Assembly (NCBI GenBank): GCA_014871385.1
Contig: CM026422.1
Location: 14,580,127-14,644,126, forward strand
DNA length: 64,000 bases
Source of the DNA: Ceratodon purpureus
Lineage: Eukaryota > Streptophyta > Bryopsida > Pseudoditrichales > Ditrichaceae
Direction of reading: 5' to 3'
Of the stretch, positions 3,697 through 23,263 are shown piece after piece. The position numbers and the translations under genes are program-made. The notes beneath the pieces are model-generated. The model saw nothing but the letters and a program-made list of their open reading frames with translations. It did no database searches and was not told where the DNA came from. The stretch's first letter is position 1. Every line of letters begins with the position of its first letter.

Positions 3697-3823
3697 TATT
3701 CTTAATTTTGGGAAATCAGAGTGCACAGAAATGGCGACATTCGTCATCTCCCATTTACTTCAATCTTGCGGAAATCAATATTGAATCATTAATAACACCT
3801 TAAAGGAACAATGAGGCCCATGT

Positions 3824-4253: not shown

Positions 4254-5083
4254 TTATGGAGTCCCTCCGTAAGCCTCAATTCTTGACTTGACAAATTCCC
4301 GTTGGCGCTGACGTGTCCACGACATTCCCTCAACCTGCATCATTGGACTATCAAGAAGACGTTGCAACTTCTGCCTACGCCTATCACCGATGCTTGACTC
4401 TGGCAGAGAGTGGCGACGGGTACTGGATGGTTTAGAGTGGGAGTCGGCGGACTTCCTTGCCCTGGATCCAGTAGTTGTTGATCGCAGCCTCGGTATCTGC
4501 AAAGGGGATAAATTAGCATTGGGAAGAGATTTCGGTTTAGGTCGAATCGACCTAAACTGCTGAGTGCAACTGTAAAGGTCGAACGGACCTTGAACGAGGA
4601 GGCCTACATAAGCTACAACTAGACCTACAGGAGAGTATAAGAAGATCAATCATTTTAGGTGGCCTCGACCTAAAATAAGGACATCAGAATGAAACATCAT
4701 GAAAGAAACTTACAAGAATGAAACATCAGAAAGGAATGAAGAGTGAATACTGAGGAATGAAAACCAACCTTTGCCGGCGGTGGTGACGGCATGTCCTCCA
4801 CATTGTTATAAAGAGCACGCTTCGTAGGGGTAGAACTCTGTCGTTTCGGAGATAGAACATGCAGTACGGTCCGTGGCCACATAGGAGAAGGGGATTTCAG
4901 GGTCTTGGGAACGGACAGGTTAACCGGGCTGTCCACAACCCCTTCGTCGACAGCCATAGTTGAATAGTCCATCGTGGACTGCGCTGTTGCAACGGATTGC
5001 AACAGAAGCCCTCTGCTACGTAGAGAGGGCCCGCAGCCACAAGCATAATTCAAAGAATCCACAGAGGCTCGACATGCATTATC
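4254..5083 (-). CDS. Two exons coding a basic Ser/Pro-rich tail, element-encoded
   Basis: Two minus-strand exons join in phase 0: 5083-4769 (acceptor TTGCAG, donor GCAAAG/GTTGGT) and 4496-4254 (acceptor TTTTGCAG, stop at 4254). The first holds SP-rich motifs such as KSPSPMWPR and LSPKRQSSTPTKR. The second is strongly basic (TGSRARKSADSHSKPS, DRRRQKLQRL), like a nuclear localisation or DNA-binding tail. The upstream exon is not certain. The phosphatase domain just before ends at its own TAA (5314), but a GC-AG intron starting inside its last codons would keep the frame and make these exons its C terminus. No known domain is recognised. Confidence 0.5.
4535..4674. repeat. Three AGGTCGA-family palindromes inside an intron
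   Basis: Palindromes at 4535-4556, 4574-4592 and 4653-4674 fall in the intron between the exons at 4496 and 4769. They share the half-site AGGTCGA with the copies near both ends of the element. Confidence 0.65.
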
Positions 5084-5313
5084 CTGCAATCCACAAAGCG
5101 AATAGAAACATACATCCACCAATAATTCAGCAATGGATAAGGGTTCGTCGCAAGGGGCAGAGTAGATCAAGAAAGAAATATGATCTTCGTATTACAAAAG
5201 GAGTAGTCTGGATACAAAGATTACGCAAGTGGTTAAGATGTACAACATACTAATAGGTGCGCGGCAGTGATGAAATGTCTATTCACAAAGTAGAGAACCG
5301 GAACCATGCGAAA

Positions 5314-6480
5314 TTATGGTCTACGACTAATTGCCTCATTAATCTTAGCGTAGTGTTCACAGGTAGAACGGTCATCATAATACATTTTCTTCCCGATCGG
5401 ACGCTCGGCCCTGAATCTAGCGATTGTCCCCACAAAGTGGTGTAGGTCTACAAGATATGGCAAAAGTTTCGACAACAAAAAACGATCATCTGCGGCATCG
5501 GGATTCTGGTTGTTCCAAGTGGAGAGTAGAAGGACATTGTAAGAATTATTCTGACAGTGCTTGATCGGGCTGTCGTCGATAAAAATGGTGTTGGCTTCGG
5601 AATATATGCCACCAAATTTACGAAAGAGACCATCGGACATCGGCTTAAGGAAGATGTCCTTCTGAGTCCCGGGTTCCTTCATATATACCGGACGACCTCG
5701 AAAATCTACGCCCATAGGAACTCTCTGACAGTCCTCTTGACCTAGAATTCTGAGTGGATAGACAGGACGAATCGGACCGAACAGATAGTCGCAGATCATT
5801 TTTGTCGTCGAAGTCTTCATCGAACTCCAGACGGTTATGGTTGCGAATGCTGACAACCGACGAAGGAAATCAACGCAATTGGGCCTGACACAAACAAGCT
5901 TGGGGCCCACGACTGCTGGCTTGGACGCTGAGTGGATGCTAAGGTCATGGCTAACGAATGATTTTCTAGGCCAATTAGGAGTACTGGAGCATAGTATTCC
6001 ATTAAGGTCGAGGACAACGTTCAACCAACCACTCTGAGGTCTTGTCGGGACAGGACTCAATTCTTCACTAGAACTTACGTCACATCCAGATGCCTCGCGC
6101 ACCTGGAGAGGAAATACCGATGACAGATGGACATTACTATATTATACTAGGACGGGGTTATACGAATGATACAATAAGGACAGTAGCAAGGCAAGTCATT
6201 CTCGAAGGAAATAGTGCAACGAGATATAAGGATAGATGAAATACCTGAGCATCCTCGGCTTGGCCTTCTACAACATCCCGATCCTCCACAGGTCCCATCG
6301 ACCCTAATGAATTCTGAGTTTCATCGCTAGGAAAGACCTCTACGCACGTTGGCAAGGTCAGAGCACACTGGGCCGTGACATCTACATCCATATTTGTGCG
6401 TCCAGGCTCATCCGCAGTTTGGGCCATGACAACATCATCCACGATCCGAAGATCTTCCACTTCCTCATTCACTTCGTGAC
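5314..6480 (-). CDS. FCP1/NIF-like HAD phosphatase domain protein of the element
   Basis: Two minus-strand exons, 6480-6245 and 6102-5314, join in phase 0 (GCTCAG/GTATTT to CTCCAG/GTGCGC). The first codes an acidic leader. The second codes an FCP1/NLI-interacting-factor-like HAD domain with motif I VVLDLNGILC, motif II region TVWSSMK, and late motif IFIDDSPIKHCQNN. This family dephosphorylates proteins, classically the RNA polymerase II tail. Motif I has DLN where active members have DxD, so the second Asp is replaced by Asn. From memory, plant HAD-like proteins with a DLNG motif exist, so it may act as a binding module. No start codon is seen before 6480. Exon 6480 needs one base from an upstream exon, which the ParB/methylase-like gene can supply from 6705, so this may be the C-terminal half of one very long protein. 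Confidence 0.7.
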
Positions 6481-6562: not shown

Positions 6563-6583
6563 GTTTAGCTCGGGTCGAGCTAA
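6563..6583. repeat. Single AGCTCGA-family palindrome
   Basis: Half-site TTTAGCTCG on both sides of an imperfect centre, in the 200-base gap between the ParB/methylase-like gene and the phosphatase exons. This gap may be an intron. Confidence 0.65.
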
Positions 6584-6687
6584 ACAGCCCATTTGTATTA
6601 ATTACAATCGTTTTGGTACAAAATGCACATTTCAGTGAACTACTCCGGTATTAACACCTCATCTACAAAATTCCGAGTTCAAAAAAT

Positions 6688-9600
6688 CTAAGTTTGGGAG
6701 GGACCTGAAGATGTCTCGGGAGCATCTCCCTGAGTCTGATTGTGGGAGGGAGAACGGGGAGGACTGGGACTACGGTCACGCATGACCTGGTCGGTGGAAT
6801 GATGGCTTGGCTCAGGCACTGATGCGGGACTCGGATCCGACTCTGGCAATTTTGCACCACCAGTAGGGGAGCCCAAAATCTCAAGTACTCGCGAAGTAGG
6901 CAGGGCACTACCTATCGGCTGGACATTGGGCAGAACTGGACCCGCATTCGGGAAAAGAGTGGCACTACCCATGCCTTGCAGAACACTCTGCAGTGCCGCC
7001 TGCACGGTCTTCTCTATATCCTTTTCCTGCTGTGCCATCCGATCTTGTAATGCTTCATTCCTATCCTTGGTCGCCTGCAATTCTGCGAGAATAGCTTGAA
7101 TATCCGGATCGGGAGCGGATCTCCCCAACGGGGAGGCTTGCCGAGCTGGAGGATTGACCCTCTTTTTCTTCTGAGCCGGCTTTCCAGTACTTCGCGCAGC
7201 GGCAGTCTTTCTCCCACTTCCGGATCCCAGCTCCGGTGCAGAACCCGGTCTCTCATCGTCCGTACGTGTAATGTCAACGTCTGGAAACTCGAGTCTTCTC
7301 CCCACTCCACCCTCAGATGCTGTCTGACTTACCGGATCAGAAGGCGGAGCATCGCTCTCATTGCTAATGTCCGCAGCACTGGAGGAGGCAGTCTGTTCCT
7401 CGGTGGGGGCATCCTCCTCCAGATCAACATCGTCACCCTCCTCCGCAGCTCTGCCTTTCCCTTTCCGCACGGCTCTGCCGTATTCCGGAAACCGTTCCTT
7501 ATCGACAAAATAAGCGTCGACACTAAAATCGGTTGGGTCCAGAGTTAATCCAAGTGCCTGAGCTTCGACCATATGAGGAGAGTCACTATCGTCCGCGACC
7601 ACGAAAGACGAGATCGAGAGCATCTGAAGAAAACAAAGACAAGGTAAATACGGTTAGCTCGACTCGAGCTAAAGTGTGGAAGTGTGTGCATACATGGTGC
7701 ATGTGATCAAAACAGTGGAACGATTTAACTCGACTCGAGCTAAAGTGTGGAAACTTACCGCGGCGGCTATGAGGGACTTCGTTCCCGCATAGAGCTGATA
7801 AATCGCCACCCCAGTACTGCGGAAAGTGTCGAGGACCTGCAGGTAGAACTCCATCCTTAACTCGGATGGATACATTGCGTACCTCCTTTCGTTGAACTTC
7901 CTGTTGTCCTTGTACAGTGGGTGGTCCGGAGTTCTGTACTCGCTCAGAGGTTCTGGCGTTGACCCGACGTTCTCAAGTCCATTATCATCAATGAGAAACA
8001 GGAGTTTGACGGGTTCCATTGCGATTCTGCTCTTTGGGGGGTGTCCGCCGAGTCGCTCGTTAGGAGCGGGTAAATACTCAGAAGGGACTCTTCTGCGACC
8101 ACTCAAGGTGTTTCGCTCCACCCAAGTGAGCACCTGGGCGAAGTCCTCATCGTCTCCGCAAATGAGAAGCCAGTGGCGAACATCGTGAAACTGTGGCTGC
8201 CCATACTCTTCGATCATATTAAAGAACTCCATGAAGAAGGGGTTCTCCAAAGTGTAGTTCTGCCTCGTCTTGTAGGTTGGGAGGAACCGGAAGTCGATGA
8301 TTCCGAATGTGAGTGCGCCGCCCGCCAACCTCCATATATCGGAGGGCCAGGATCCGAAGGACAGTCGAGGCTCCCTGATGAATGGGAGGAACCACATCTC
8401 AGCTGAAGGACACTTAAACGCATGTCGAACCTTCAGGAAGGTTTTAAAGAACTCAACCGCATATGGGGAGAGCTCCTTGGCCGACTTGTTGCGGAACTGT
8501 GTAGCTCTGGAGTTAGTCCAGTACGAGTCTGGAATACCCCAATCAAGCAGAACGTGCTTCGACTCCTTAGAGACAAAGTAAGTCTTCTTGAAGTGCTTCC
8601 AAGCGGGTACATCAAGGCCGTCTCTCTTGAATAAATGGAGCGTTGGATTAATGTTGTTGAACTCCGCTTGAGCTACAGCCTTACGTTTTCTCCGCTCCGC
8701 CCACTCCTTGACCGAGTAGCAGTCCTCCAATACACTCGTATTCTGCTTGATGGTCACCTTCGGATATGTGTACTTCCGACTTGGCCCAGACTTATGCAGG
8801 ATGTGCTTACACATCTTCTGGTGATCTGCCTCTGTCAAGTTCCCGAGCCATTTGAAGAACTCCCTTGGAAGCGTCCCATCCTTGTCCGGAACGAACCCCT
8901 TCCTCTCATAGAATTTCTTATGCGGAGGTTCGCTGTCGGGATCAATGAGTCCACCACATGCCGCAGACGCGATCACCTCCTTCCACAGGTCCCATGTTTC
9001 ATCACTGGATGTGATGATAAACAGCTCGTTTGTTAGGGAGATAGTGTTCTTCCCTCCCTTCTTCGCCACCATGGCTTGATGCTTCGCCACATCGATCATA
9101 GCGAAGCGCTCCCTGATAGCATTCAGAAAGTTCTGCATATGCACAGGAAGAATCCTTAGATGATGCTGTCTCGGAACAACTGTTTAGCTCGACTCGAGCT
9201 AAATTGATCGAGATATACCAGAATATTGAAAACGAAGAAGATTATCAATATTTAGCTCGAATCGAGCTAACCTGCAGGAAGTTTAGCTCGAGTCGAGCTA
9301 AACTGCTAATGCTAATGAATCAGTGAACTTACCTCGTATGTCTTCGACGATGGATTACTTTTTGGACCTGTACTCCTGCGGTCCGCAGCACCAGCGGCAG
9401 CATTTTTCTTTTGGGGCTTTCCATACTTCTCCCACACTTTTCTAGCGGCAAGTATATTGCTCGCCCAAGTTGGCTTGAACGGTGCGAGATGGTTCACCCG
9501 ATTATAGAATGCTGAGATCTTTCGCAGCTTATCATGATCCTTCGTCCAGACGATGTACGCATCCCACCTCCTGAAGTCCCTCAACAACTCCTCACTGGCG

Positions 9601-10706
9601 TTATCCTCGATGAGAGATTTGGACGCCGCCACGCTGTGTTGCCCGTTGATGATGTGGAATTCACAGCCTTCCAGATCCGATTCTTGTTGAGGTCGTGCCT
9701 TTGTGTCAGGCATGAGACACAGGGTTTGCTTTTGACTCCTATCAGGCATGTTGGCCAGGTAATTCTTCATCTCCTCCATGCCCCGCTTCTCATATGCACG
9801 GATAGTCCATGCGGCCGGTGCGGGCTTGCACCGCGTCACGTCCACACTGAACTTCTTTGGTTGCCCATTCGTTTTGAAGACGAACTCGTCCTGGCAATCA
9901 GAAAAGAAATTCTGGTAAATGCGATTGGCGTTGTCGAAGTCCAGGATCTCTCCAGCCTTGTTCACCTTGGGGAGTTCCCCGAGAACAGAGTTCAAACTTG
10001 TTGCCAAGTCCTCTGCAGATAAGAGCAAGTCCTTCTTCGGCTTTGGCTTCTCAGTTTTCTTCTCGAGTCCTTTCTTCTTCAATGGTGAGTGGGGCGTGGG
10101 AGTTGCAGAACCGCCTCGGCTTTGGGATGGAACTATCGCTCTCCCCCTACTGCGTCCTGTCTGTTGGCTCCCCATTTGACTCCCGGTTGCTGTCACTCCA
10201 GACACGTCAACTTGAGATTTTCCGAGGTTCTGCTTCACCTTTGCCTCCGTTGCGCGGAGAGCAAGGGTGCAGACAACATTCCTCAGTTTCCACGCTAGGG
10301 ATTTCGCTCCGAGAGTTCGTCCATCCTTTGTTGCCCATTTCCTGTCCAGTATTTCTTGTCTCATCGTGGACACTATCTCCTCGAAAGGTGAATTGGACAA
10401 ACTTTCCATTAGGGAAATGGGGTCGAAGAGGTTCTTCGCTACGTCTACTACTATGGAGAAGAGGTATGGAGTAGCCCCGGTAGTTGAGCAGAGGATCTTG
10501 ATTTGGTCTTTTCCCTTATTGTCACACTCGGTGACCTTTGTATCCATATCGATGACCTCGGGATCATCGACTTCTCCCTTGAAAATGGTTGCGAAGGTAA
10601 GATATGGGGTGTGTGCAACCCATCGCAGAGTCCAATGTTTGACCTTCGTGGGGTCTTTGAAGGTCCACGGCTCGAATTGTGCTTGAGTCATCCCCGTCAT
10701 CGTCAT
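6688..10706 (-). CDS. ParB-like domain fused to degenerate DNA-methylase-like domain
   Basis: Three minus-strand exons join in phase 0: 10706-9333, 9132-7759 and 7623-6688 (donors GAG/GTAAGT and GCG/GTAAGT; about 1227 residues). Residues 1-170 are unknown; 180-230 are basic and low-complexity. Residues about 295-370 fit a ParB/sulfiredoxin-like fold, with a WTIRAYEKRGMEEM strand-helix and INGQHSVAASKSL at about 353-365, where bacterial relatives have G-x-H-R; the Arg is Ser here. The second exon resembles a beta-class N6/N4 adenine methylase. Its motif IV place reads IIDFRFLP instead of DPPY, HWLLICGDDEDF resembles motif V, and YAGTKSLIAAA, ending at the splice junction, resembles motif I with the second Gly lost. 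Methylation activity is therefore doubtful. The third exon is a Pro/Ser-rich linker with a short coiled coil (7080-7020). It ends at TAG 6688, or splices from 6705 into the phosphatase exon, also in phase. Function is inferred from fold only. Confidence 0.7.
7652..7743. repeat. Two AGCTCGA-family palindromes in an intron
   Basis: Copies at about 7653-7673 and 7723-7743 lie in the 135-base intron that splits the methylase-like motif I region. Most of this intron consists of the two palindromes and a shared AAAGTGTGGAA tail. Confidence 0.75.
9183..9302. repeat. Three AGCTCGA-family palindromes in an intron
   Basis: Copies at 9183-9203, 9251-9270 and 9282-9302 lie in the 200-base intron between the ParB-like and methylase-like exons. 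The adjoining exons carry none. Confidence 0.8.
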
Positions 10707-10791
10707 CTGAATCAGATATAGGAACAGGCTTGAAGAAATGTCGTAGCGCCTCAGTTACCCTTCCTCTCTCCTCACTGCAAGGAGGACACAT
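10707..10791 (-). other. Possible upstream coding exon in a conflicting frame
   Basis: Just before the chosen ATG (10706) the minus strand has an acceptor (CTCCTTGCAG at about 10775) followed by an acidic, coding-looking stretch, HFFKPVPISDSDDDDGDD, which also opens from an ATG at 10791. It is in a different frame from the ParB-like exon and stops at 10564. Either it belongs to a short upstream reading frame, or a one- or two-base indel has cut the true N terminus off. Confidence 0.35.
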
Positions 10792-10816: not shown

Positions 10817-11322
10817 TTTAGCTCGATTCGAGCTAAATGTTGATACTAATAATCAAGTAACCGATTGTATCCCAGCAGTTTTGCTCGAGTCGAGCTAAAC
10901 TGCTTGGGCTTTCAGCATGGGAGCCTTTCAGTTTAGCTCGACTCGAGCTAAACTGTACAGATCCAACCATGGGAGCCTTGCAGTTTAGCTCGACTCGAGC
11001 TAAACTGTAGAGCTTCCATGCAGGAATGCACAAGCAGTTTAGCTCGAGTCGAGCTAAACTGCAAGGCTCACATGCTGAAAGCCCAAGCGGTTTAGCTCGA
11101 CTCGAGCTAAACTGCTTGGGAATAAGCATGGGAGCCTTGCAGTTTAGCTCGACTCGAGCTAAACTGTTTGTGCATTCCTGCATGGGAGCTCTACAGTTTA
11201 GCTCGAGTCGAGCTAAACTGTATGTGACACTCCCTGGAAGTGGAGGACAGTTGTACCTCCAGTTTAGCTCGACTCGAGCTAAACCATTGGCTGCTAAGCA
11301 GTTTAGCTCGAGTCGAGCTAAA
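10817..11322. repeat. Array of 10 AGCTCGA palindromes upstream of the ParB-like gene
   Basis: Copies start at about 10817, 10880, 10932, 10983, 11038, 11091, 11143, 11197, 11263 and 11302. Each has half-site TTTAGCTCGA, one or two central bases, and its complement; several extend to CAGTTT/AAACTG. Most spacings are 51-55 bases. Spacers come in inverted pairs: 10897-10925 with 11063-11093, and 11003-11040 with 11161-11198. The array lies 100-600 bases before the start of the leftward gene, probably in its 5' untranslated intron (strong minus-strand GTAAGT donor at about 12194, acceptor at about 10775). Confidence 0.85.
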
Positions 11323-11339
11323 CTGTGGGCTTTTATTAT

Positions 11340-12160
11340 CGAATTATCGTCAGTTTTATGAATAATATATTGCATTATATTTGTTGAATTTCACATTTTA
11401 GCACTGCAGTCAAGCTTTGTTGGATGTGGAGTATATGATATTGGCATTTGCTTTTATACCTCTCGGCCATTTCCAGATGTATAAGCTCCTGTTTCTTTCT
11501 TGGAAATTATGTCAATCGTGTTTTGCCTGCAAAAAGCAATGGTTGCAGAGGATCAGAAGATGGAATAAATATTCGAGACGTTCAATATTCGCACCGAAAA
11601 ATACGGGAGAAAAGTACAAATGTAATAGGATTCCTTTTAATAAGATTCTAATATAAGCAAAGTCGATCAGATTACCAAAACACATAAAAATATGGCTCAA
11701 AACAATGGCGCCAACATCAATGCAAAGTAGCAAAAACTGTTATCAACATAACTACAACCTCGACATCAATTAAACTAACAATCAGTCCTCAAATCAGTAG
11801 AACCTATCAATTCCGACACACAGCAATGATAATATTGCAGGAATACTCGTATTAGTTTTTCTGAATTCCTGAAATGCATGTTGTTTGACCTACAAATCGA
11901 ATAAAACAAGAAATTCAAAGTACACAATCGTAACAATTACAGTGAATTATAGAACATTCATAGCTTCAATTGAATTCCGCAAATTGAACTCAAACAGAAC
12001 TTCTGTGCATAACCTTTGTAAGGAGAGGTAGTTGAAATCAACGACACGAATCCATGACAAGAGTTTAAATCAAGAAATCCACATTTCCAACCACAACTAA
12101 CAAAAACAATACAGAGCTTCGGATATTGACAGAACTGTTTTAAAAAAAAACCGCACGCAA
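11340..12160. other. AT-rich stretch, no gene seen
   Basis: No reading frame looks coding and no palindromes are present. It is probably the rest of a 5' untranslated intron of the leftward gene. Confidence 0.4.
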
Positions 12161-12189
12161 ACTGATAGAAGAGAAGGAAGACGACGACT

Positions 12190-12760
12190 TACCTGGAAAC
12201 CCTGTGAAGAAAACCCTGCTTCGTAAACTTCCGCAACCTCCACTTCACTCCGCGATTGTCAATGCAGCACTATTATGAACAACTAAGTGTATAACCTAAA
12301 CCCTAAACAGTGTCCTAAACCAAACCCACGAAGTATTCCCCAGAAACTGCTGAAACCCTTATCGAGAACAAAGCATGCGGCTTGGAATGAAGAAACCCCA
12401 AAACCTAAAACCCAGCTTCTTACCCTCTCAAACCTACAAAACAATGCAAACAGAACGTAGGAAACACACCAACAGAACAAGAGAAACACATCACTCTGCG
12501 GCAAACACTACAGTGGCAGAGTTTCGCACAGCAGTAGAGAAGAAGAGCGCGCCACAACCAAGAAACATTCCCGCCACCACCAGAAAACAAGCGCAAGACA
12601 CACACAGACAGAGAGAGAAGAGAAGAGAATACTTCGTGGACGCGGTCGCGGTGGAGAACAGTTCCGCCCCCTCGCACGGTCCTGTGACCGCGCCGCCAAA
12701 GCGTGTGGCCCTTCACCGCGGGGCTCTTTGTAAATTTAATTTAGAATGCTTCGAAATCGA
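12190..12760 (-). promoter_or_regulatory. Probable promoter and 5' leader exon of the leftward gene
   Basis: A GC-rich island (about 12540-12740) in otherwise AT-rich DNA is followed, on the minus strand, by a leader-like stretch ending in a consensus donor CAG/GTAAGT at about 12194. This fits transcription starting between 12740 and 12300 toward the ParB/methylase-like gene. A TATA box or exact start cannot be fixed by eye. Confidence 0.4.
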
Positions 12761-12789
12761 AATTCGGTAATTGTTGGTGTGTACAGTAG

Positions 12790-14180
12790 TCAATAATTTT
12801 CATTATGGAATATTAATTTTAGTTATATCAGAATCACCAAATGGTAATGTCAATATTTGTAAGAATTGCGAGATAAATATTACTGTCCATTTTCTCATTT
12901 TACTTGTGTTTACCTGATTTGGGTAGTGAGAAAGTGAAAATAACTTTTGTTTAAGAAGTTACTTTAAAGATAGATAGTGCGGTTCACTCTCCATATTGTT
13001 AATCCCATGCGGTTTGGTAAACCTGCTCTTTCTTACCTTAAGAAGAATTCACCACGATGGCTCCAATAACTCACATGGGATTGGGGAACCATGACCCTTA
13101 ATGTGTACTGTGAATGGGGCTGAGGTTACCAACCCAGTGTGAGTTTCAATGAAACCTAAACAGGATAGGGAACTCGTTTTTTCAGGGTTCTGATGAAATG
13201 TATTGGTAATATTTTACAATGCTACACAACATGCTTGCATTATGTGAAGTTGGTTTACTGTTTTGATTGTATTTGCATTTATATACATTTATGAATCTAC
13301 ATTAGATTTTGATTTTTGATCTTTTTGAAGTAACTAAATTTTAATCAATTCAATAATGCTTCTTCCAATTTTGTAATAAGAATTTGTAGTTATTTGCCTA
13401 AGCATCAAATTCAAATACACTACTTGCAATGATAATGAATTTCATATACGCAAATTGGAAACATATTTACCTAAATATAATCATCATATTCCTAAAGTAC
13501 ATGTTAGGAACATAATTTAATTATAATATAATAATATAGTATAGTATACTAAGGTACTAATATATTCTTTTACAAATTTATTTTTATTTATTGATTATGA
13601 AACGAGAATAATAATCTATATTCAAGTATACTCAAATCTAAAAATGATATACAAATATATTCGAAATAGTTTTGTAATTATATTACGAATGCATCAAATA
13701 TAAATACACTATTAGCAATGAAAATTTATTTACTATACTATAATTGGGAACATATTTACGCAAATGTTATCATCATATTATTCTTCTACAACTTGTTAGT
13801 TTAATTATGAATTAGAATTCTATTCCAAATAATTTCCATGCAATTTTGAAGATTTTGGTAATTCAAAATTCATATACAAGCATGTACATAGATACTGCAA
13901 TTTAAAAATATACTTTTCATCATGGAATAATAATTTTAGTTATATCAGAATCACTGATTGGTAATATCAATATTTGTAAGAATTGCGAATTAAATATTAC
14001 TGTCCCTTTTTGTATTTTATTTGTATTAACCTGATACGGGTAGTGAGGAAGTGAATAACTTTTTATAGGAAGTTACTTTAAAGATAGATGCTTGCATTAT
14101 GTGAAGTTGGTATTGCATTTTGATTATATTTGGATTCATATAAATTTATGAATGTACATTAGATTTGGATTTCTGAATTT
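12790..14180. repeat. Two diverged direct copies of an AT-rich unit
   Basis: The segment 12795-12960 plus 13229-13330 reappears at 13910-14175 with many substitutions (shared landmarks AATTTTAGTTATATCAGAATCAC and GCTTGCATTATGTGAAGTTGG, each given here only as a landmark). The piece 13385-13560 likewise reappears at 14440-14620 and in part at 13680-13800. Confidence 0.6.
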
Positions 14181-14549
14181 CTATGAATGAAAGATAGAGA
14201 AGTATGTTTTTTTATTGTCTTTATTAGCTTTCAGCCTCCCCGTTACTAAATTTACAGTAAAATATGGAAATATTATAATACAAAATAAACAAATAGGGTT
14301 TATAAATTAAAATTCTATGCAAAAGAAATTGAACGCAATTTTGGAAGTTTTGAAAAATAACACAATTTTGAGCTTCGAAGTGGACAAATTATGAACAATT
14401 GTAAAGGATGAAATGTACATTTTTATTTTATGTAATAATAATTTGTAATCATTTGACTAAAGCATCAAATATGGATACACTATTAGCAATGAAAATGAAT
14501 TTCATATACTCGAATTGGAAACATATTTACATAAATGTTGTCATCATAT

Positions 14550-16735
14550 TCTTAAGGTACATGTTAGTATCATAATTTATTTAGAATATAATAATATAGT
14601 ATAGTATACTAAGATACTAATATATTCATTTATAATTTTATATTTAATTAATGATTATAGTACTAGAATTATAATCTATATTCAAGTATATACAAATCTT
14701 AAAATGATATATAAGTATATTCAAGTATATATATGAAGTACATTGTTAAAAATAATAGTATTTAATTTTAGAATTCAATTCATTAATTATGGCAAATTCT
14801 TTATATTGTTTAGAAGGTTTAGGGTTTTTTATATTTATTCATGAGAAGCGAATATTTAAACCATGGTATGCCTTGTATGATTGGCATGTATATTACAATA
14901 ATCTTAATCAATTCATTCACGTTCTACCTTGACTAATATTCTTACAATTTTATTACATTCTAATAAGAAACTGGAATTCTTGCTTCATTTGCATAATTTT
15001 AAAATACAAAATTCATAATTCATAGATTCAAACGAAATTTACTACTACATTTACTAGTTAGCATGGACATATTAGAATACGAGATATACAAATATGAAAG
15101 CATCAGATGAAACACTGGTTTTCGTCTAGAAGAACCCTGTTTTGAAGGCATTCCATTCCAGAAATTGTTTACGGGGAATACCATCAGCAAAAGTTACCAG
15201 AAGATGAAAGTCATCTCTTTTCACATCTATGGTTTCTAAATATTGTATAATCTAACGGTCCTGCTAACTACTCCTGGAGTCCCCATTCCATATCTGAGTT
15301 GAATAGCAGCAAAAAGTAAAATCGGAGAAGTATATCGAAGATGCCTGCAAGTTCTGGAGAAAAGAGGAAAACAAGATCAGATGGTATGATGTTTAGGGTT
15401 CAAAACGGAAAAGTGCATGTCAAAAGCAAGGACTCATCCTCCTAAGAATCAGAACGAACACAGCATGAGCCATTAAAATGCTGCGCACCACATACAGCAA
15501 ACGCAATCTATTATTATGAAAACATCAAACTGAGGACAAGGTTAAGGGTTCTGAGGAGATAACAATTCACCTACTCATTCATGTGGTGGGCTCCCCAAAT
15601 CCACGCTCCCCTCCTCATTAGAATCAGGCATAGAGAAGCCCTCGCCGGAGGTGAGGGGAAACTTGATGTTGGAGGCGTTCATAATCTGCAGTTGCTCTAG
15701 ACCATGTGCAATAGTCCAATCCCACTCCACACCGGGCTGCATTAGGCGTGCAATGAGGTTCCACGGGGGAATCTCCACGCCGCGACCACGGGCGCGTTCC
15801 ACAGCCATAAACCAGGGACGAAGCTCCTCCACTCCTTGTGGAAAAACAACCACCTCCCACTCGTCTGGCGGGTAACTTGACACCCTAAAACGACCGCCCG
15901 ACCTCCTCATCACAATAAACGAACTACAAGTAGATGAAACAGAAGGGAAACTAAGAATGAAACAACTGTTTCGTCGCCCAAAGGAACTTATGCTTATGAA
16001 GCAGCATGGGCGGGAAGCCGAATGTTCCAGAGTAACGAAGGGGACTTTGACCAGACTCGGTAACGGGACTTTGACCGATCTGGGCTTTCGAAAGTCCGGA
16101 TCTAATTTAAAGTGTCATTTTAATTTATTATTAAAGAATTGATTAATGGGATTGTATGCTTAGACAAACATCTAGAGCCTTTCTCGATATTATATATTAA
16201 TACCACAACTATAATTATGATAATTGGTTTAAAACGTTTCATATGAATCCATAATTTATGAGTTTTTTTTAAAAAATGAATGAACCAAACATTCCACTTT
16301 CTTATTAGAATGTAATAAAATTGTACAAATAGAACTCAAGGTAGAACATTAATGAATTGATTAAGGTTTGTGTAATTTCCATGCCTACCATTCAAGGCAT
16401 ACCATGGTTTAAATATTCGCTTCTCATGAATAAATATAATTAACCATAAACCTTTTAAAAAAAATAAAGAATTTGCCATAATAAATGAATTGATTTCTAT
16501 AATTTAGTACTTTTATTTTTAACAATGTACTTCGTATATATACTTGAATATATTTGTGTATCATTTTTAGATTTGTATATACTTGAATATTGTTTTATTA
16601 TTCTCGTATTATAATCAATAATTAAATATAAAATTGTAAATAAAAATATTAGAGCCTTGGTATACTATACTATATTATTATATTATAATTTGATTATGAT
16701 ACTATCATGTACTTTAAGAATATTAGGCTTACATT
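14550..16735. mobile_element. Central long inverted repeat with a 1.3 kb loop
   Basis: Arm 14550-14985 pairs with the reverse complement of about 16285-16735 across roughly 440 bases with substitutions and indels. Landmarks are the TATAGTATAGTATACTAAG run, the AAACCATGGTATGCCTTG box and the GGTAGAAC box. The loop holds a small reading frame (15575-15913). Long inverted arms around a possible captured gene look like a foldback or long-TIR MULE element nested inside the giant one. A partial direct copy of the right arm follows at 16741-17060. I did not find a convincing target duplication. Confidence 0.5.
15575..15913 (-). CDS. Small hypothetical protein in the inverted-repeat loop
   Basis: An ATG (15913) opens 112 codons with coding-like composition, clearly less AT-rich than its surroundings. 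Visible motifs are YPPDEWEVVVFPQGVEELRP and IPPWNLIARLMQPGVEWDW. There is no recognised domain, signal peptide or membrane segment. The last codons (GAA TGA) overlap no clear splice site. Its place between two long inverted arms suggests a captured gene fragment, or the cargo gene of a nested transposon. Confidence 0.45.
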   Translation of the reverse strand: MMRRSGGRFRVSSYPPDEWEVVVFPQGVEELRPWFMAVERARGRGVEIPPWNLIARLMQPGVEWDWTIAHGLEQLQIMNASNIKFPLTSGEGFSMPDSNEEGSVDLGSPPHE

Positions 16736-17511
16736 TAGGTCAACGTACTTTCACCCCATGCCTATCATACAAGGCATACCATGGTTCAAATATTTGCGTC
16801 TCATGATTAAATATTAAAAATTCAATCTTCTAAAAAACGTATAGAATTTGCCATGAGAAATGAATTAAATTCTATAATCTAATACTATTATTTTTAACAA
16901 CGTATTTCGTATATACTTGAATATACTTGTATATCATTTTAAGATTTGTATACACTAGATTTTAGTTAATTATTCTCGTACTATTTTTAACTGGACATTA
17001 AATTGTTAATGAATATATTAGTACCTACTTGTAAATAAATATATAATTATATTATACATATTATAATCCTAACATGTATATTAAAAATATACATGTTAAG
17101 ATGTAGAGTTCCAGAAACGAAAGAACAAAGCTACACCATTCACGGCGTAAAGAACACATTATGAAATAAATAGAGACATAAATAAAAGTACATGAATATA
17201 TATACATAATATATACATGACAATTATATCTGACTAAATTTGTAGAATAAATAAATAATTCTAAATTTAAAAACATATCTACCTAGGTCTATCAAGAACT
17301 ATTCATGAACTCACATATAATGATTTGATTTCATACATCATATATAATAATGAAATTGAGCAAAAATACATACTCTAGTACATGGAGGTATGAATATTTG
17401 CAACGATATACTTCCCTGTATGAACCTTACTCACGAAATACAAATAGGTTCAAACAATTTTCGATTTAATTTTATTCCATATACGTGATATTTAATGTCC
17501 CTAGAAATGCC

Positions 17512-17600
17512 TTAACCCTGTAGACTAAACCCTAAACCCTGGACCTAAGACCCTAAACCCTTAACCCTGAACCCTATACCCTAAACCCTGAACCCTGATC
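17512..17600. repeat. Degenerate telomere-like repeat tract
   Basis: About eleven adjoining variants of CCCTAAA (CCCTAAA, CCCTGAA, CCCTTAA, CCCTATA) occur in a row. A shorter tract (CCTAAACCCTAAAC) is at 12295. This is the plant telomere unit in an interstitial position between the two divergent genes of the element. Confidence 0.7.
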
Positions 17601-17749
17601 GAAGATGATAAGTTCGGGGCCAAAAGTCAACATTCTCTCTGGCGCTATGACGTGCCCAACCCATCCCGTTTGATACAATTAATGCACCAAATATTTCGCA
17701 TCTGCATCTATCTAAAGGGCCGAGAATTGTGGAAAGTGGTAATTCCCGC

Positions 17750-18190
17750 GCTTTCTCACACCTCGAAATGTGGAGGGTCGAATGGTCATGCATGATTCCC
17801 GCCTATTTTCAAAACTGAAGCGGCATGAAAACGGTCACACGTTACAGAATGACCTCTGGAATCGTCCCCGGTCGAAGTCTTTTCTCTACTCACTTGCTTC
17901 TCTCGCTTGTAGGAGCTCTCGGCGCTCACTTGGAGACGGTTGTTTTCTGGGCGGAAGCTGTATTGCGCCGTTTCTGTTGTACGTCTTCTCTTTAGTTTTC
18001 TCCGATCATCAGTACACTTCATTGATATCTGCTTGTTGTATGCTTTCCATTGATTCAAGTCATGGTGTATTTGCAGTGTCTCTCTTTCCTTCTTACAGAC
18101 GTTTTAGAGCGGACACCGTAAGCGTACTCTCAGTCTGCGACTCAGAATTCCGAAGATGGAAGCACCTATTAAAGCGCCGCTATTTGCGGA
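17750..18190 (+). promoter_or_regulatory. Probable promoter and 5' leader of the DUF7869-like gene
   Basis: A GC-richer island opposite in orientation to the one at 12540-12740, with a CT-rich initiator-like stretch (TTTCTCTACTCACTTGCTTC at about 17880). The coding exon starts five bases after an acceptor (TTTCAG at about 18632-18637). The leader is therefore spliced, and the palindrome array at 18196-18547 most likely sits in its intron. Confidence 0.4.
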
Positions 18191-18195
18191 CGGCA

Positions 18196-18547
18196 GTTTG
18201 GCTCGAGTCGAGCTAAACTGCTGCATCCAAAGAGCATCATGAGTTTAGCTCGACTCGAGCTAAACTACCGCATCCAAAGGGCAGCATAAGTTTAGCTCGA
18301 CTCGAGCTAAACTACCGCACCCAAAGGGCGGAAGAAGTTTAGCTCGACTCGAGCTAAACTTCTGCCGCCCTTTGGGTGCGGTAGTTTAGCTCGAGTCGAG
18401 CTAAACATCTGTATCCAAAGGGCAACACGAGTTTAGCTCGAGTCGAGCTAAACTTCTGCATCGAAAGGGCAGCAGCAGTTTAGCTCGACTCGAGCTAAAC
18501 TTATGCTTCCCATTGTCCAGGATCAGTTTAGCTCGACTCGAGCTAAA
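18196..18547. repeat. Phased array of 8 AGCTCGA palindromes upstream of the DUF7869-like gene
   Basis: Copies start at about 18196, 18244, 18291, 18338, 18384, 18432, 18479 and 18527, so spacing is 46-48 bases throughout, about 4.5 DNA turns. Spacers carry a CCAAAGGGC motif. One spacer (18361-18383) is inverted relative to its neighbour (18315-18337), giving a larger inverted repeat. The array ends 95 bases before the start codon at 18643. Confidence 0.85.
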
Positions 18548-18642: not shown

Positions 18643-21480
18643 ATGGACTATGTCTCAGATGACGAGGTTCCCGTTGCAGTGCCCGTAAACCCAGACCTTC
18701 CAGACTTCGTGGTTGTACCCTCAAGACAATGGCAGAACAAGACTGTAACAATATATAGCGACGACAATATCCCGTTAGCAGAGGGTTTGATCCGGAACCC
18801 ACGGTCCAGCTTGGTATCTGACACGGTTGGTCCCCTTGGTGATTCCGTTGTCGTCGTCCAGGTATCACGTTCTTTGGTCGAAGAGGAGTCAGAGGATGAT
18901 TGGAGGTACTCCTTCAAAACGTGGCCTATCAGCCACGTCTATCTGGATGGAGTTAGCCTAGAGCACCATAGTCAACGTGATGTGTATAACCGTTGGGTTG
19001 CGGAGCGTAACCGATCCCTGGGAGATCGTACCCGATCGTATGATAACTCCTCTAGGAATACCCCCCCTCCTATATCACGTCACGCTGAGTTTCTGATGAC
19101 CCAGCCATCTATCAACTCTGTAGCGGCAAACACGTGCTGCGCTCACCTATGCGTCCAACACTATCCCAGAGATAAAATCTCTAGTCTACGGTCGCGTATG
19201 TACGACAAGACCACAGTGCAGTTCCGTAATCACATAAAACTCGACGTGCATAGACAGATCCACAAGAATTCAGCGGGGAAGAGTGTGGTGACTCTGGAGG
19301 GCATAGATGTCTGCCCCTTCGCCTGGATGAAGATTATGGGAGTGAGCTCCAGTACATTCTATAGAAATGCCCAGTATGCTGCTGCTGGTTTCGAGGCTCA
19401 ATTTCACGGTAATACTGGTTTACGTAAACCTCGAAATCACACAGTAGTAGCAACTGCCGTCCTAGGGGCCATCCTGGACAGGCATGCCGACCACATGCCC
19501 CACAAGAGTCGTGTTCTGCCTTCAGGGGAGACAGTTGTAGCTAAAGTTCTGCCTTCCAGTTTCAAATGGAAGGAACAGATTCCCATCCTCGATGAGCATT
19601 TAGCGGACTGCGGATTGCCTCCTATGTCCGCTTCTAACTTGAGCAAGATCAGGAGGCTTAGCTATCCAGAATATTACGCCAAACGAGCAGGAGACAACTT
19701 CGCTCGTTGCTCAAAATGTGATGAGTTCCAGTCCCAGAAGAAGTTAACGGTTACAGGATCTCAGGCGTCCCTGTTGTGGTCTAAGAAAATGAGGCTGCAC
19801 AATGACTCTGCAATGGCGCATAGGGACTTGTACTACCTAAATCGATTCAGGTCGAAGGCTACTCCGCATGAAGTTCTTACTATTATGCATGACAAGATGG
19901 ACCATTCGAAGACGGCGTCGCCGGCGTTATCCCACAAGGTCAAACACTTAGACGGTCTCATGAAGCTTCCTCTCGCTGTCACGGGAATGCTTGCTCATGG
20001 GCATGTGGACCAACGTTACGCCCATTATGGCCTTGACATTTACTCACACGACGCAAATTACACGGTTGGATCGTTTGCGAAGCTCCTTCGGGACCTTGAG
20101 TCACCCCCTAAATCCACCTCTAGGGAACTCTTTCAAGAGAATCCTTCCCACCCATTGTATGCCGCGCTTTTGCATGGTTCAGAGATGTGTTTGGATCCTC
20201 TTGGCCCTCCTCCTGAGGTTCCTGTTGCTGCTAAACCCTTGCCTCCCATTCTTAACGTCCAAATGGATAACGTTGTCAGTGATAACAAGAATAGGTTTGT
20301 ATTTTCATTCTGGTCCCTATTAGTCGCGAAGCGGGTGTTTCGCGAGGTGTACGTGAATTTCATGCTGGTCGGCCATACTCATGACGATATTGATGCCCTT
20401 TTCGGGCGATGGAGCATGGCTTTGCGGAGGGAGGACTTCCCCACAGTACCTCTCCTCATGAAGTCCTTCATGAAACATGAAGCAGTACCAACAATTCCGC
20501 ATCTTATTCAGGAGGTCCCAGATTTCAAGAAATTCATCGCGGAGTGGATGCTTGATGGCGACGATACGTTAATGGGTCACACTAAAGCTCATCAGTTCAA
20601 GTTCTATGTAGATTCTTCAGGATGCCCAGTCATGAAGTATAAAATCTTCTGTCACGACGACGACTGGTTGCCAAAAGGAGATGGTTGTGGCATCAAGTTG
20701 TGGAAGGAGGATTCAGAAGGTCGATCTTTATGGCCCCGTGGTGTTCCTGGTGCCGTGGCGCCTCGCGAGATGCGGCACCTGCCTGATGTGATGAAGGGCT
20801 TGTCGGGTTTTGTAGATCATTGGGAGAGGCTATCTTCGGATTCAGTCGAGTCCAGAAGAATCTATGAGCCACTCTCATACTATTGGAACGATGTTAAAGA
20901 GGCTCTCTCCATTCCCTTTGATGTTGTCCCCGTCTTGCAGCATGGTTTTTGGCCATCCACGCGGCTTGCTCACTCCGTCGAAGACGAGTTTCAGGAAGAT
21001 GGAACTTTGCGCGAGGAGTTCGCAGAGGATGATCACTTTGTTGGTCACAAACGAGATCGCCCAGGACCGTCGTTCCGTGTTGCGCGAGACCTTTTTGCAG
21101 GGTACTTCTTGGCGCTTCGACCCTGCGATGAAGACAATCGTCCTTTCTGGCTTGCGCGGGCCTTGACTGACCCTAATTCGAACCCTGACCTCCCAAACAC
21201 GCTCCAAGTAGAGTTCTACCGCCCAATTTCCCGAGATGAAAATGTTTTGAAATTCTATACCGGCTGGGAGGTGGATGGGAGACTTCGTTGGACAGTTGTG
21301 AAGGATGTACCCGAGTCGTGGCAGAGTACTGATGCAGTCATAACAGCTTGGAAATCCAAAGTTAAAAAAAATGTCAACGAGCGGGGCGTTGGCAAGGATC
21401 CAACGCTGAAGATCCCACTGAAACAACTGGACATTATAAAGGCCTCCTTGGAGAGATTTGTGTCTCCGGATTCTGAATAA
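18643..21480 (+). CDS. DUF7869-like protein, candidate DDD transposase of the element
   Basis: One intact 945-codon exon starts five bases after an acceptor (TTTCAG/GTACAATGG). The protein resembles the DUF7869-type family known from many eukaryotic genomes as repetitive open reading frames. An N-terminal region is followed by Cys/His clusters (CCAHLC at 165-170, VC at 223-224, CSKC at 356-359) and a central domain with HDKMDHSK at 416-423, VQMDNVVSDNKNR at 539-551 and GHTHDDID at 577-584. Asp417, Asp542 and Asp581 or Asp582 give D, about 125 residues, D, about 39 residues, D, which fits an RNase H-type DDE/D transposase core. This assignment is my inference. Residues about 800-855 (FRVARDLFAGYFL, FWLARAL, VEFYRP) look like a small beta-barrel BAH or Tudor-like domain. 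As the only large intact gene reading rightward, it is the best candidate for moving the element. Confidence 0.75.
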   Translation: MDYVSDDEVPVAVPVNPDLPDFVVVPSRQWQNKTVTIYSDDNIPLAEGLIRNPRSSLVSDTVGPLGDSVVVVQVSRSLVEEESEDDWRYSFKTWPISHVYLDGVSLEHHSQRDVYNRWVAERNRSLGDRTRSYDNSSRNTPPPISRHAEFLMTQPSINSVAANTCCAHLCVQHYPRDKISSLRSRMYDKTTVQFRNHIKLDVHRQIHKNSAGKSVVTLEGIDVCPFAWMKIMGVSSSTFYRNAQYAAAGFEAQFHGNTGLRKPRNHTVVATAVLGAILDRHADHMPHKSRVLPSGETVVAKVLPSSFKWKEQIPILDEHLADCGLPPMSASNLSKIRRLSYPEYYAKRAGDNFARCSKCDEFQSQKKLTVTGSQASLLWSKKMRLHNDSAMAHRDLYYLNRFRSKATPHEVLTIMHDKMDHSKTASPALSHKVKHLDGLMKLPLAVTGMLAHGHVDQRYAHYGLDIYSHDANYTVGSFAKLLRDLESPPKSTSRELFQENPSHPLYAALLHGSEMCLDPLGPPPEVPVAAKPLPPILNVQMDNVVSDNKNRFVFSFWSLLVAKRVFREVYVNFMLVGHTHDDIDALFGRWSMALRREDFPTVPLLMKSFMKHEAVPTIPHLIQEVPDFKKFIAEWMLDGDDTLMGHTKAHQFKFYVDSSGCPVMKYKIFCHDDDWLPKGDGCGIKLWKEDSEGRSLWPRGVPGAVAPREMRHLPDVMKGLSGFVDHWERLSSDSVESRRIYEPLSYYWNDVKEALSIPFDVVPVLQHGFWPSTRLAHSVEDEFQEDGTLREEFAEDDHFVGHKRDRPGPSFRVARDLFAGYFLALRPCDEDNRPFWLARALTDPNSNPDLPNTLQVEFYRPISRDENVLKFYTGWEVDGRLRWTVVKDVPESWQSTDAVITAWKSKVKKNVNERGVGKDPTLKIPLKQLDIIKASLERFVSPDSE

Positions 21481-21601: not shown

Positions 21602-21626
21602 TTTAGCTCGAGTCGACCTGATCAGT
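21602..21626. repeat. Hybrid half-palindrome
   Basis: The left half has the internal-type half-site TTTAGCTCGA and the right half has TCGACCT of the end-type family. It lies 120 bases after the stop of the DUF7869-like gene, at the border between the zones of the two palindrome types. Confidence 0.5.
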
Positions 21627-21757
21627 TATAGCGTATTAGTTCTAGCGTATTTATGTTTTGAATACTAGATAATTACATATATTTAATTGGAGGGAACACT
21701 ACTTAAGTGTTTCTGTCCATTCCTTATTTATCATGTGTACCACATTATAGACCGCAG

Positions 21758-22400
21758 TTTAGGTCGAGGCGACCTAAACTGCATTTGGCGTTGAAGTTCG
21801 TACTTTGCGACTGCGGGATACCAACAGGTCACCTATAGTTCTTAGTGTAGATTTTTACTTAGTACCCTTAAGCGTTGATTCTATATCATATGTACTGCCA
21901 CATAACAGCCATTTAGGTCGAGGCGACCTAAACAACATCTAGCGTTGAAGTTCCTAGTTTGGATCTCTGAAGTAGAGCCGATAACATACATTTGTTGGCA
22001 TGGGACTATTATGAAGTCCGTATGTTCTTGGATTGCATATCATACTCCGGAAACTGTAGGCAGCTATGTTAGTCGAACACCTGATTGTTTGTACAGGTCT
22101 GAAAGAGCCTGTCACGGATTCAACATTTACGGAGTGTCGACCTAATTTGTATTTCCACACATATATATAATATAAGATTTCCCGGCATATCCGTTGTGTC
22201 CATTTCTTGTTATTTGTTTGATGTTCATTTAGGGTGGTTCGACCTACCTTGTATTTTTTGAAGTATTTCTAGTAAACCTCTAGCTTCTTTCATTTCCCAT
22301 TAGTACTGTGTGATCATGTCCCAAATTAATGGAAATTGCTTATAAGCTTTTCCTTGCCAAGTATGGGACCATTGTGCCCATTTTAACTCGACCTGACCTA
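21758..22400. repeat. Right subterminal palindromes, AGGTCGA family
   Basis: Good copies are at 21758-21779 and 21911-21931, with decayed ones near 22228-22250 and 22383-22400. They mirror the copies at 3824-4674 near the left end. The rest of 21481-22425 has no coding frame. Confidence 0.7.
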
Positions 22401-22425
22401 ATGCATTATTTTGGGAGATGATAAA

Positions 22426-22450
22426 TCTCCCAAAATAACGAATATGGTGT
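22426..22450 (-). repeat. Right terminal inverted repeat of the giant element
   Basis: Reverse complement of the left repeat, 25 of 25 bases. The inner part forms a local hairpin: TTATTTTGGGAGAT at 22407-22420 pairs with its complement at 22425-22438. Confidence 0.85.
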
Positions 22451-23263
22451 TGTATACTCTTCCCAGATTTTCCGCTTCTTATGTTGCGCTCCTTCTGCTA
22501 TCTCCTCCTTTATGATATTCAGACCTTTGAGGACCTGAATGTCCACTCCGCGTGTAGAGTGTCTGTCTTCATGAGCTCTGCGTACCCTTGGTCGTAACTC
22601 ACGTTCCAGAACTTCCTCCTCATACTCTTCCTTCGCGTCTGCAGCTGCATGGTCAACTTCCTCTGGATCATCCTGCGTGAAACAACCGTTAACGTTGATA
22701 CAGTTACTGAAGCATACACTGAAGTATGAGAAAATGAAGATATAAGTTTGTAGTTGGCTTACATTTGAATGATCTGTGTCTGGTATGGCGTCATCGCCGA
22801 CAGGTTCTAGAAGAGGCATCACTTTCCTGTGAACCCACTCAAGGGGGGACTTAACGTTTGCAAACTTCTCGAGTGGGACGAAACGGGTTTTCTTGTGTGC
22901 GGCGAAACAACAAACCATGGCAAATGCCAGCCAATTCACATCCTCTCATGTCGCTTCCAGGGCGAGGCCACGTGCAAAATGAAGCGGGATGATTCCACCT
23001 TCGAGGTAGCGCTGATGGACCCTTTCATACAGTTCGGTCACATACAGGTGGTAGTCTTTGCCATCCCCGTCACGAAATTGATAGCCCCTGTGTGCTCCAT
23101 TTCGACCATCGTCAAAATTCACTGCCGGTCCATACCGAGCTACGATATCCTTTTTTGGGAAGACATGCCGACTCTCTGGATCACCCGGCAAAAAACCACT
23201 GTCATTCAGCAGCATACATCTCCTAAACCAGGATTCCCACCGCGCTCTACTTCTATCGTCCAT
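22451..23263 (-). pseudogene. 5' part of a transposon-interrupted accessory gene, with an in-frame stop
   Basis: The minus-strand frame opens at ATG 23263. It runs through an in-frame TGA (22948-22946, between motifs LALEAT and EDVNWLAF) and reaches a donor at 22763 (TCAAAT/GTAAGC). It resumes at 22672 (CACGCAG/GATGATCC) and reads on to the target duplication at 22451. Visible features are a WESWFRRC motif, an FRDGDGKDYHLYVTELYERV helix and an acidic to basic C-terminal region (HKKRKIWEE). Removing the 18.8 kb element joins this frame directly to 3665-3381. It may be a DNA-binding accessory protein of the TNP2-type element to its right, which reads in the opposite direction. No family is recognised with confidence. 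Confidence 0.65.

Follow-up and report, generated by a model that had tools for sequence, protein, structure and literature searches.

Palindromic sites in the non-coding DNA of a large moss transposon family: candidate self-recognition sites of an element-encoded protein

TNPA binds repeated motifs in the Spm transposon, and the En/Spm repeats bound by TNPA, like those of Ac, are subterminal and ∼12 bp or shorter. The VANDAL elements are Mutator-like, and to our knowledge it is mainly for the VANDALs of Arabidopsis that recognition by a transposon of its whole self, against host silencing, has been described in detail. In the portions of the published accounts consulted, the motifs bound by the Arabidopsis VANC protein stand in tandem in VANDAL non-coding DNA and differ between related families (PMC5735166, PMC10398659); the VANC21 motif is 9 bp long, forms same-orientation arrays and is not palindromic (PMC5735166). 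The Sola superfamily, as given in the consulted part of one account, has 4-bp target duplications, a DDD transposase, inverted repeats of variable length and some members of >15 kb, and occurs in Physcomitrella patens (PMC10741241). Here, a 64,000-nucleotide stretch of the moss Ceratodon purpureus (assembly GCA_014871385.1, contig CM026422.1, positions 14,580,127 to 14,644,126; “the window”) was found to contain an 18,781-bp integrated DNA transposon, at 3671-22451, whose non-coding DNA carries many copies of a 21-bp palindrome. We favor, with moderate confidence, the reading that these palindromes are self-recognition sites that would be bound by a dimeric element-encoded protein and serve anti-silencing or autoregulation in a large moss DNA transposon family.

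The sites in the window have the form TTTAG[C/G]TCGA-N-TCGA[C/G]CTAAA, and 31 of them were found at ≤3 mismatches with the sixth letter free, all within 3826-21932. A search of the 64-kb window with TTTAGCTCGASTCGAGCTAAA (≤3 mismatches) returned 29 matches, compared with 0 in 100 dinucleotide shuffles. Beyond 3826-21932 the scan for these 31 sites picked up nothing except one match with 3 mismatches, at 38092 (two-base centre), and two with 4 mismatches, at 22382 and 40386 (the latter with a four-base centre). Gene 1, which encodes a protein with a ParB-like part and a phosphatase-like domain, has ten sites in its leader, three and two in introns 1 and 2, respectively, and one ahead of its phosphatase exons, and four lie to the left of these exons; eight more occupy the leader of gene 2, which encodes a DUF7869 protein, and three lie beyond gene 2 (Table 1). 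A preliminary description of this DNA, in which a parS-like system on a plant transposon was proposed, had reported the ten palindromes before gene 1 and the eight before gene 2, and both arrays were confirmed, the spacing in the second being 47-48 bases. That account of arrays beside both genes was real but incomplete, as six sites in gene 1 introns come in addition to its eighteen and a sister class lies near the element ends. The arrays had also been called phased; each does have a tandem period of its own (47 and ∼53 bp in the window; 25, 26, 41 and 54 bp in relatives), but the periods differ, and a helical phasing common to the arrays was ruled out.

The sister, or end, class (TTTAGGTCGA.TCGACCTAAA) reads GGTCGA where the inner sites read GCTCGA. 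On the left it is found at 3826, 3928 (where the right half is poor), 4536 and 4654, the last two in the gap between the small reading frames 5191-4772 and 4496-4256, and on the right at 21602 (a hybrid), 21758 and 21912, with degenerate half sites still closer to the right end, at 22137 and 22382. Of the 24 inner sites, 22 have C or G at the centre. Coding sequence occupies ∼8,189 of the 18,781 bases, and none of the 31 sites falls in a coding exon of our gene models; given that sites within arrays are not independent, this avoidance counts as approximately eight clusters only. As in En/Spm and Ac, where an element protein binds such sites and influences activity, repeated short sites are thus present in a DNA transposon; unlike theirs, most of the moss sites stand at gene leaders and in introns and are not subterminal.

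Its inverted repeats, its target duplication of constant length and an empty counterpart of its insertion site identify the element as a cut-and-paste DNA transposon, and the earlier assignment to a plant transposon is borne out. In a search of the genome (362 Mb, 151 contigs), the terminal inverted repeat AACACCATATTCGTTATTTTGGGAGAT occurred at 192 forward and 200 reverse places at ≤3 mismatches, and the reversed control at 0. The target duplication was exactly 4 bp in all 13 insertions examined (ten scanned, the window with GTAT, copy A with TTGT and element E/H with ATTT, the last by eye). At an empty-site paralogue (C6:38503172-38503378), the joined outer flanks of the window element match continuously, with 72% identity over all 207 bases. 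The genome holds at least 48 full-length DUF7869 copies that are 97-100% identical; of the 48 copies listed, 35 are stop-free and 17 lie on C6, the V sex chromosome (∼30% of the genome). Three close copies were read: copy A (C1:298018-316955), copy B (from C1:18418596, its right inverted repeat 37.8 kb from the left one) and the half copy C, which covers gene 1 (C2:∼623-630.7 kb).

Gene 2 matches the DUF7869 profile at 145 bits against a cut-off of 26 and is probably the transposase of the element. In an alignment of 24 sequences (A1, in which the window protein was joined by 23 of 101 homologues), Asp-420, Asp-542 and Asp-584 are among 8 invariant Asp/Glu residues, five other acidic residues being equally invariant; their contexts (MHDKMDHSK, QMDN..NKN and GHTHDDID) would fit the triad of a DDD transposase. 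The 4-bp duplication, size of >15 kb and inverted repeats are shared with Sola, and the candidate DDD residues would be a further common trait, whereas the palindrome arrays and the phosphatase fusion go unmentioned in the consulted part of the Sola account (PMC10741241). Membership in the Sola superfamily is plausible from the 4-bp duplication, the DDD candidate, the size and the presence of Sola in Physcomitrella. A literature search that covered few subscription journals matched nothing to DUF7869 and gave, among the matches listed, no title describing these palindromes.

Genome-wide, 3,686 sites were found at ≤2 mismatches, compared with none for the pattern in reverse; the matches listed on C1 include 40 exact sites, of which 39 lie inside copies A and B. 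Both of these copies, which have both genes, keep the layout of the window, and each of their arrays comes within one site of its counterpart there (gene 1/gene 2 arrays of 10/8 in the window, 9/9 in A and 10/8 in B; the gene 1 array of C has 10). Each of copies A, B and C also has three, two and one sites at matching positions in introns 1, 2 and 3, respectively. Over 30-31 sites, identity was 98.1% for window/A, 97.5% for window/B and 97.6% for A/B, compared with 90.2, 80.8 and 83.9%, respectively, in flanks of 20 bp on each side; sites were better than, worse than or tied with their own flanks in 22/2/6, 24/5/2 and 24/3/3 cases. They are as conserved as the coding sequence of the same pairs (98.4, 97.1 and 97.4%). 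CpG dinucleotides inside the sites were kept at 56 of 57 places from window to A, 56 of 59 from window to B and 53 of 56 from A to B, as against 72 of 86, 59 of 82 and 60 of 75 outside them. Neutral satellite-like repeats, homogenized through tandem duplication, would account for arrays built of tandem site-plus-spacer units that vary by one site between copies. However, the spacers diverge in the three copies compared and the sites do not, isolated intron sites persist outside arrays, and the same introns hold sites across ∼70% protein divergence, so that we regard a satellite origin as extremely unlikely.

The preliminary description would have been refuted by related elements with the genes but no palindromes; the outcome was the opposite, as palindromes were present in all seven relatives read (A, B, C, E/H, F, G and L014). 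Element G (C5:687-706 kb), whose DUF7869 protein is 49% and gene 1 exons 28-29% identical to those of the window, uses the spelling TTTAGCTCACWGTGAGCTAAA, of which the genome has 1,001 occurrences at ≤1 mismatch. It carries 45 such sites at ≤4 mismatches, none within protein-matching stretches: a 41-bp array precedes gene 1, further sites lie in introns 1 and 2, and a 26-bp array precedes DUF7869. Leader sites of G that were found without a pattern have A or T as the central base in 14 of 14 cases. After DUF7869 there is a third type of array, with a 54-bp period and a hybrid spelling whose left half is nearer the window's and whose right half is G-like (L071 ∼8409-8787, that is, 18409-18787 of L070+L071).

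Element E/H (C3:16058-56825, 40.8 kb) was read outside C3:25500-36499 and was taken as one element from its two ends, the ATTT duplication and its shared spelling. Its DUF7869 protein is 55%, gene 1 26-36% and the phosphatase 37% identical to the window's, and it carries TTCAACTCGANTCGAGTTGAA ahead of gene 1, within introns 1 and 2, on both sides of the phosphatase and ahead of DUF7869, in an order collinear with the window. The 362-Mb genome has this spelling 21 times at ≤1 mismatch, every time inside E/H. Element F (C6:72.36 Mb; DUF7869 47% identical, gene 1 28-45% over partial matches) has sites in both leaders and in intron 1, in forms near the G spelling that are less uniform. Its presumed inverted repeat also starts AACACCATATTC, and at L068 ∼base 3769 F has apparently inserted into the DUF7869 gene of a window-family copy. 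L014 (CADCWO010000071.1) is a 4.3-kb contig with DUF7869 only (67% identical), flanked on both sides by a total of five sites at ≤3 mismatches (shuffles, 0.005). Judged by its gene, L014 is surely moss DNA; L014 and protein P0148 are moss-type transposon DNA in AVDCRST metagenome bins labelled cyanobacterial (Synechococcales, Leptolyngbya).

The motif is concentrated, in tandem, in the non-coding DNA of a single element family and takes another form in related families, its spelling changing in concert within a lineage, and sites and protein genes are inherited together. Plant enhancers often act in leaders and introns, and the clustering of sites there would also suit a host transcription factor or insulator protein that binds them and is exploited for element expression. 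Such a factor would not explain why, in one genome, the spelling differs by element lineage and is largely uniform within each, nor why the TTCAACTCGA version stands at only 21 places, all in one element, and we consider a host factor quite improbable. Both VANDALs and the moss families have motifs in the non-coding DNA of the element and motifs of their own for each family, as far as the consulted accounts of VANC allow the comparison. Within the same limits, the moss sites differ in being near-perfect 21-bp palindromes in an unrelated type of transposon and in keeping their positions in homologous introns over deep divergence; moreover, binding and loss of methylation were measured for VANC and are predictions for the moss family.

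Palindromes resembling the end class also came up outside mosses. Among the matches listed, 49 of 50 stretches from a bacterial collection derived from Rhizobiales or close kin with common flanks of their own and were rejected as unrelated. These stretches (L001-L050 except L014) carry a dispersed intergenic palindromic repeat with the core TTTAGGTCGANTCGACCTAAA, or at a few loci GCTCGA, the flanks having been compared by eye. The core is identical, letter for letter, to the end-class site of the moss element, which is probably a coincidence between palindromic repeats. In viral contigs, neither relatives nor a GCTCGA-class site were found.

Co-inheritance was also apparent from proteins related to gene 1. 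A profile of exon 1 (A3) found 37 proteins, many of which are raw reading frames that extend into intron 1, so that a site may be read in translation (SLARFELN, FSSTRAK and FNSTRVE are examples). A translated palindrome was present in 15 of 20 homologues with a tail of ≥58 residues and in 0 of 15 with shorter tails, two of the 37 proteins having resisted parsing; in controls, shuffled tails gave 6 matches in 40,000 and the DUF7869 set 1 match in 72,963 residues. The tails without a match are those of P0148, P0149, P0150, P0152 and P0154; inspection by eye finds near-sites in four of these. The ending QL[DE]SS, by eye the TTCAACTCGA form read up to its stop, is shared by four proteins; P0149 has it as QLESS. 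Given that four of the seven A3 rows included such tails, hits with intron tails were possibly favored; in an unbiased search with the window exons only, four of the five hits not annotated as Ceratodon carry a translated site, and the fifth, P0119, is a spliced model. A further exon alignment (A2) comprised the window exon and 9 of 21 sequences.

In a maximum-likelihood tree built from exon 1 after the tails had been trimmed off, from which P0152 and P0155 of the 37 were left out, the four site classes need 3 changes, the minimum possible, compared with a mean of 8.2 after shuffling, when 0 of 200 shuffles reached 3. The tree has a site class for 23 of 39 rows, 22 in the four groups and one, the hybrid P0142, in none of these; for P0141, P0145, P0149 and P0151, the QL[DE]SS ending, judged by eye, gave the class. 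The GCTCGA class forms one side of a branch (100/100). Thus, the tree shows co-inheritance of the site class with gene 1.

These observations are most simply combined as follows. An element-encoded protein would bind the 21-bp dyad as a homodimer throughout the non-coding DNA of its own element, in the leader arrays of both genes, in introns and toward both ends; such coverage would keep the element family transcribed and open, or tune it, and the bound protein may help to bring the element ends together. Protein and sites would be inherited jointly, with the spelling shifting in concert within a lineage. An element-encoded homodimer is favored because the dyad is near-perfect, is kept above its flanks, is non-coding, is largely uniform within an element and differs between elements. 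Anti-silencing or autoregulation is favored because a host factor would not follow lineages, because a site for the transposase only would be unexpected throughout introns and because VANC provides a precedent. We infer protein binding, the identity of the binder, its dimeric state and its anti-silencing role from these features of the DNA. With regard to the roles suggested in the preliminary description, binding and autoregulation are thus favored, and segregation is not, the sites being spread throughout an integrated chromosomal element.

The main rival, which we consider unlikely, is that DUF7869, as the transposase, itself binds the sites, mainly to find the element and assemble its ends, the promoter and intron sites being autoregulatory. 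A class of sites does lie toward each inverted repeat (3826-4674 and 21602-21932), the window, A, B, E/H, F, G and L014 all have DUF7869 together with sites, and in E/H eight sites before DUF7869 stand ∼28 kb from the gene 1 leader sites. Against this, most sites are distant from the ends and concentrated at leaders and gene 1 introns, and the natural transposase target would be the 27-bp inverted repeats, which lack the palindrome. As the binder, the gene 1 protein is slightly favored over DUF7869, albeit weakly, because it is not a transposase and because 16 of the 31 sites lie in the leader and introns of its own gene. A role of the palindromes in RNA, as 9-bp hairpins that affect splicing or as a source of small RNA, would draw on the many sites in introns or possible introns and on the long inverted repeats included in the arrays. 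It is very unlikely in our judgement, given that end-class sites lie beyond the coding parts and that the dyad is near-perfect up to a restricted central base, of one kind in the window and of another in G, as in a DNA operator; the loop of a hairpin would be free.

Several points weigh against recognition by a single element-encoded protein. Automated gene models from other copies or relatives (P0108, P0117 and P0022) translate through a site, and a lone exact site at C1:15616582 (L064 base 4583), with a half site ∼70 bases before it, lies outside recognized elements. The TTCAACTCGA class occupies two places in the tree and needs 2 changes, a single change being found in 0 of 200 bootstrap trees. 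Co-inheritance is equally expected from plain descent inside one element, and because the class was read at the gene 1 intron only, the tree does not distinguish whether the gene 1 protein or DUF7869 would be the binder. The difference between end-class and inner sites leaves room for additional binders. Library searches recognized no DNA-binding domain in the gene 1 or the DUF7869 protein, in keeping with the preliminary description, which had seen no bacterial-type helix-turn-helix. Finally, many copies are broken: the gene 1 frame is interrupted near its N-terminus in the window, and DUF7869 has one stop each in A and B; because of this, the sites of broken copies reflect descent from active copies and not their own activity.

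A bolder version of recognition by the gene 1 protein, to which we assign a low probability, is a self/non-self code built into a lineage of giant DNA transposons in mosses. Here, a fusion protein that combines a ParB-like fold with a degenerate methylase-like region and a phosphatase-like domain would load on the non-coding palindromes of its own element and keep only that lineage active; new lineages would arise when the protein and dozens of sites switch spelling together, independently of VANDAL/VANC.

The parS-like system of the preliminary description found no support. As in bacterial parS/ParB, palindromic sites are clustered by a gene with a short ParB-like motif, IINGQHSVAASK in exon 1 of gene 1, which is the only ParB-like feature and was seen by eye. 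An arginine is expected in the ParB motif; at its position, S or C is found in 7 sequences aligned by eye. The moss site is presumably unlike parS in sequence. Searches of gene 1 against Pfam, NCBIfam, PHROGs and PDB sequences returned no ParB match, leaving the proposed ParB-like domain without backing, and ParB_N (PF02195) had no match at E ≤ 10 in the whole genome, whereas 11 of 14 control genomes gave a match in the same search, 9 of them above the cut-off. A diverged ParB fold could lie below the reach of profiles. No ParA-like gene was recognized in general scans, none of which was aimed at ParA. Unlike a segregating replicon, the element is chromosomal and bounded by target duplications, with sites across leaders, introns and both ends. 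The ParB-CTPase fold does occur outside segregation and fused to methyltransferases, according to the consulted part of one account (PMC12704722), and the palindromes do stand near the gene with the ParB-like stretch; nevertheless, a parS/ParB-type partition or loading system on the transposon is barely credible.

Table 1. Features of the transposon and its palindromic sites in the window
Feature	Position	Strand	Remarks
Target site duplication GTAT, left	3667..3670	.	
Terminal inverted repeat, left, AACACCATATTCGTTATTTTGGGAGAT	3671..3697	+	27/27 bases match right end
Two end-class palindromes, TTTAGGTCGA type	3826..3948	.	Second only half good
Small reading frames left of phosphatase exons	4256..5191 (5191-4772, 4496-4256)	-	By-eye model from splice-like sites
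Gene 1 3' exons, NLI-interacting-factor/FCP1-type phosphatase domain	5314..6480 (6480-6247, 6102-5314)	-	PF03031, E = 1.2e-13
Palindrome in intron preceding phosphatase exons	6564..6584	.	
Gene 1 third long exon	6704..7623	-	Left limit approximate
Two palindromes, gene 1 intron 2	7653..7744	.	Starts 7653, 7724
Gene 1 second long exon	7759..9132	-	Junctions agree with P0102
Three palindromes, gene 1 intron 1	9183..9302	.	Starts 9183, 9251, 9282
Gene 1 first long exon	10706-9333 (9333..10791 including N-terminal piece)	-	Contains IINGQHSVAASK at 9653-9618
Ten-palindrome array, leader/promoter side of gene 1	10817..11322	.	Inside possible 5' intron 12192-10775; starts 10817, 10879, 10932, 10984, 11038, 11091, 11143, 11197, 11263, 11302; spacings 62, 53, 52, 54, 53, 52, 54, 66, 39
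Eight-palindrome array, gene 2 leader	18197..18547	.	Inside possible 5' intron 18118-18637; spacing 47 six times, then 48
Gene 2, DUF7869 protein, 945 aa, probable DDD transposase	18643..21480	+	PF25273, E = 2.7e-42
Hybrid site 21602 and end-class palindromes 21758, 21912	21602..21932	.	
Terminal inverted repeat, right	22425..22451	-	Perfect 27-bp partner of left end
Target site duplication GTAT, right	22452..22455	.	

The gene models behind Table 1 vary in their basis. A by-eye reading of the sequence makes it possible that both leader arrays lie inside first introns. The exon junctions of gene 1 are consistent with the annotated protein P0102 from a 98% identical copy, in which the phosphatase exons are fused to the ParB-like part; the C. 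purpureus protein KC19_N037900 is 98% identical to window gene 1. The N-terminal piece (from 10791) is out of frame with the remainder in the window and in frame in copy A. A PF03031 match is also present in E/H (E = 5.2e-15). Phosphatases of the FCP1/NIF type have the catalytic motif DxDxT, which is absent from the phosphatase domain of gene 1, where the window reads DLNG and E/H reads DVNG. Given that the second Asp of the motif is Asn in both, phosphatase activity is doubtful, and the domain may be a binding part instead of a catalytic one. The methylase-like region at the end of exon 2 was seen by eye only, and no domain library backs it.

Between the two genes, the middle of the element (12790-17060) is AT-rich and contains long inverted repeats (317 nt, 88%), a nested fold-back insertion being one possible origin; telomere-like CCCTAAA runs lie just past it, near 17525-17598. 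Elsewhere in the window, remains of a Tnp2-type (CACTA) transposase were recognized at 25565-27813 (PF02992, E = 2e-59; DUF4218, E = 1.8e-27) and, at 35335-36708, a gene for an amino acid transporter (PF01490) that looks like a normal gene of the host. The GC skew switches sharply at 57000-59000, from -0.38 to +0.58 over 2 kb.

If the favored reading of the palindromes as self-recognition sites is true, the same solution to self-recognition arose in an unrelated type of transposon in mosses, and the evolution of its sites would be traceable through their strong conservation. Given that at least three spellings and their cognate genes are present in one genome, specificity would be testable by simple swaps. 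Because the elements occur on many chromosomes, including the V sex chromosome, they may also matter for the growth of the moss genome and of its sex chromosome.

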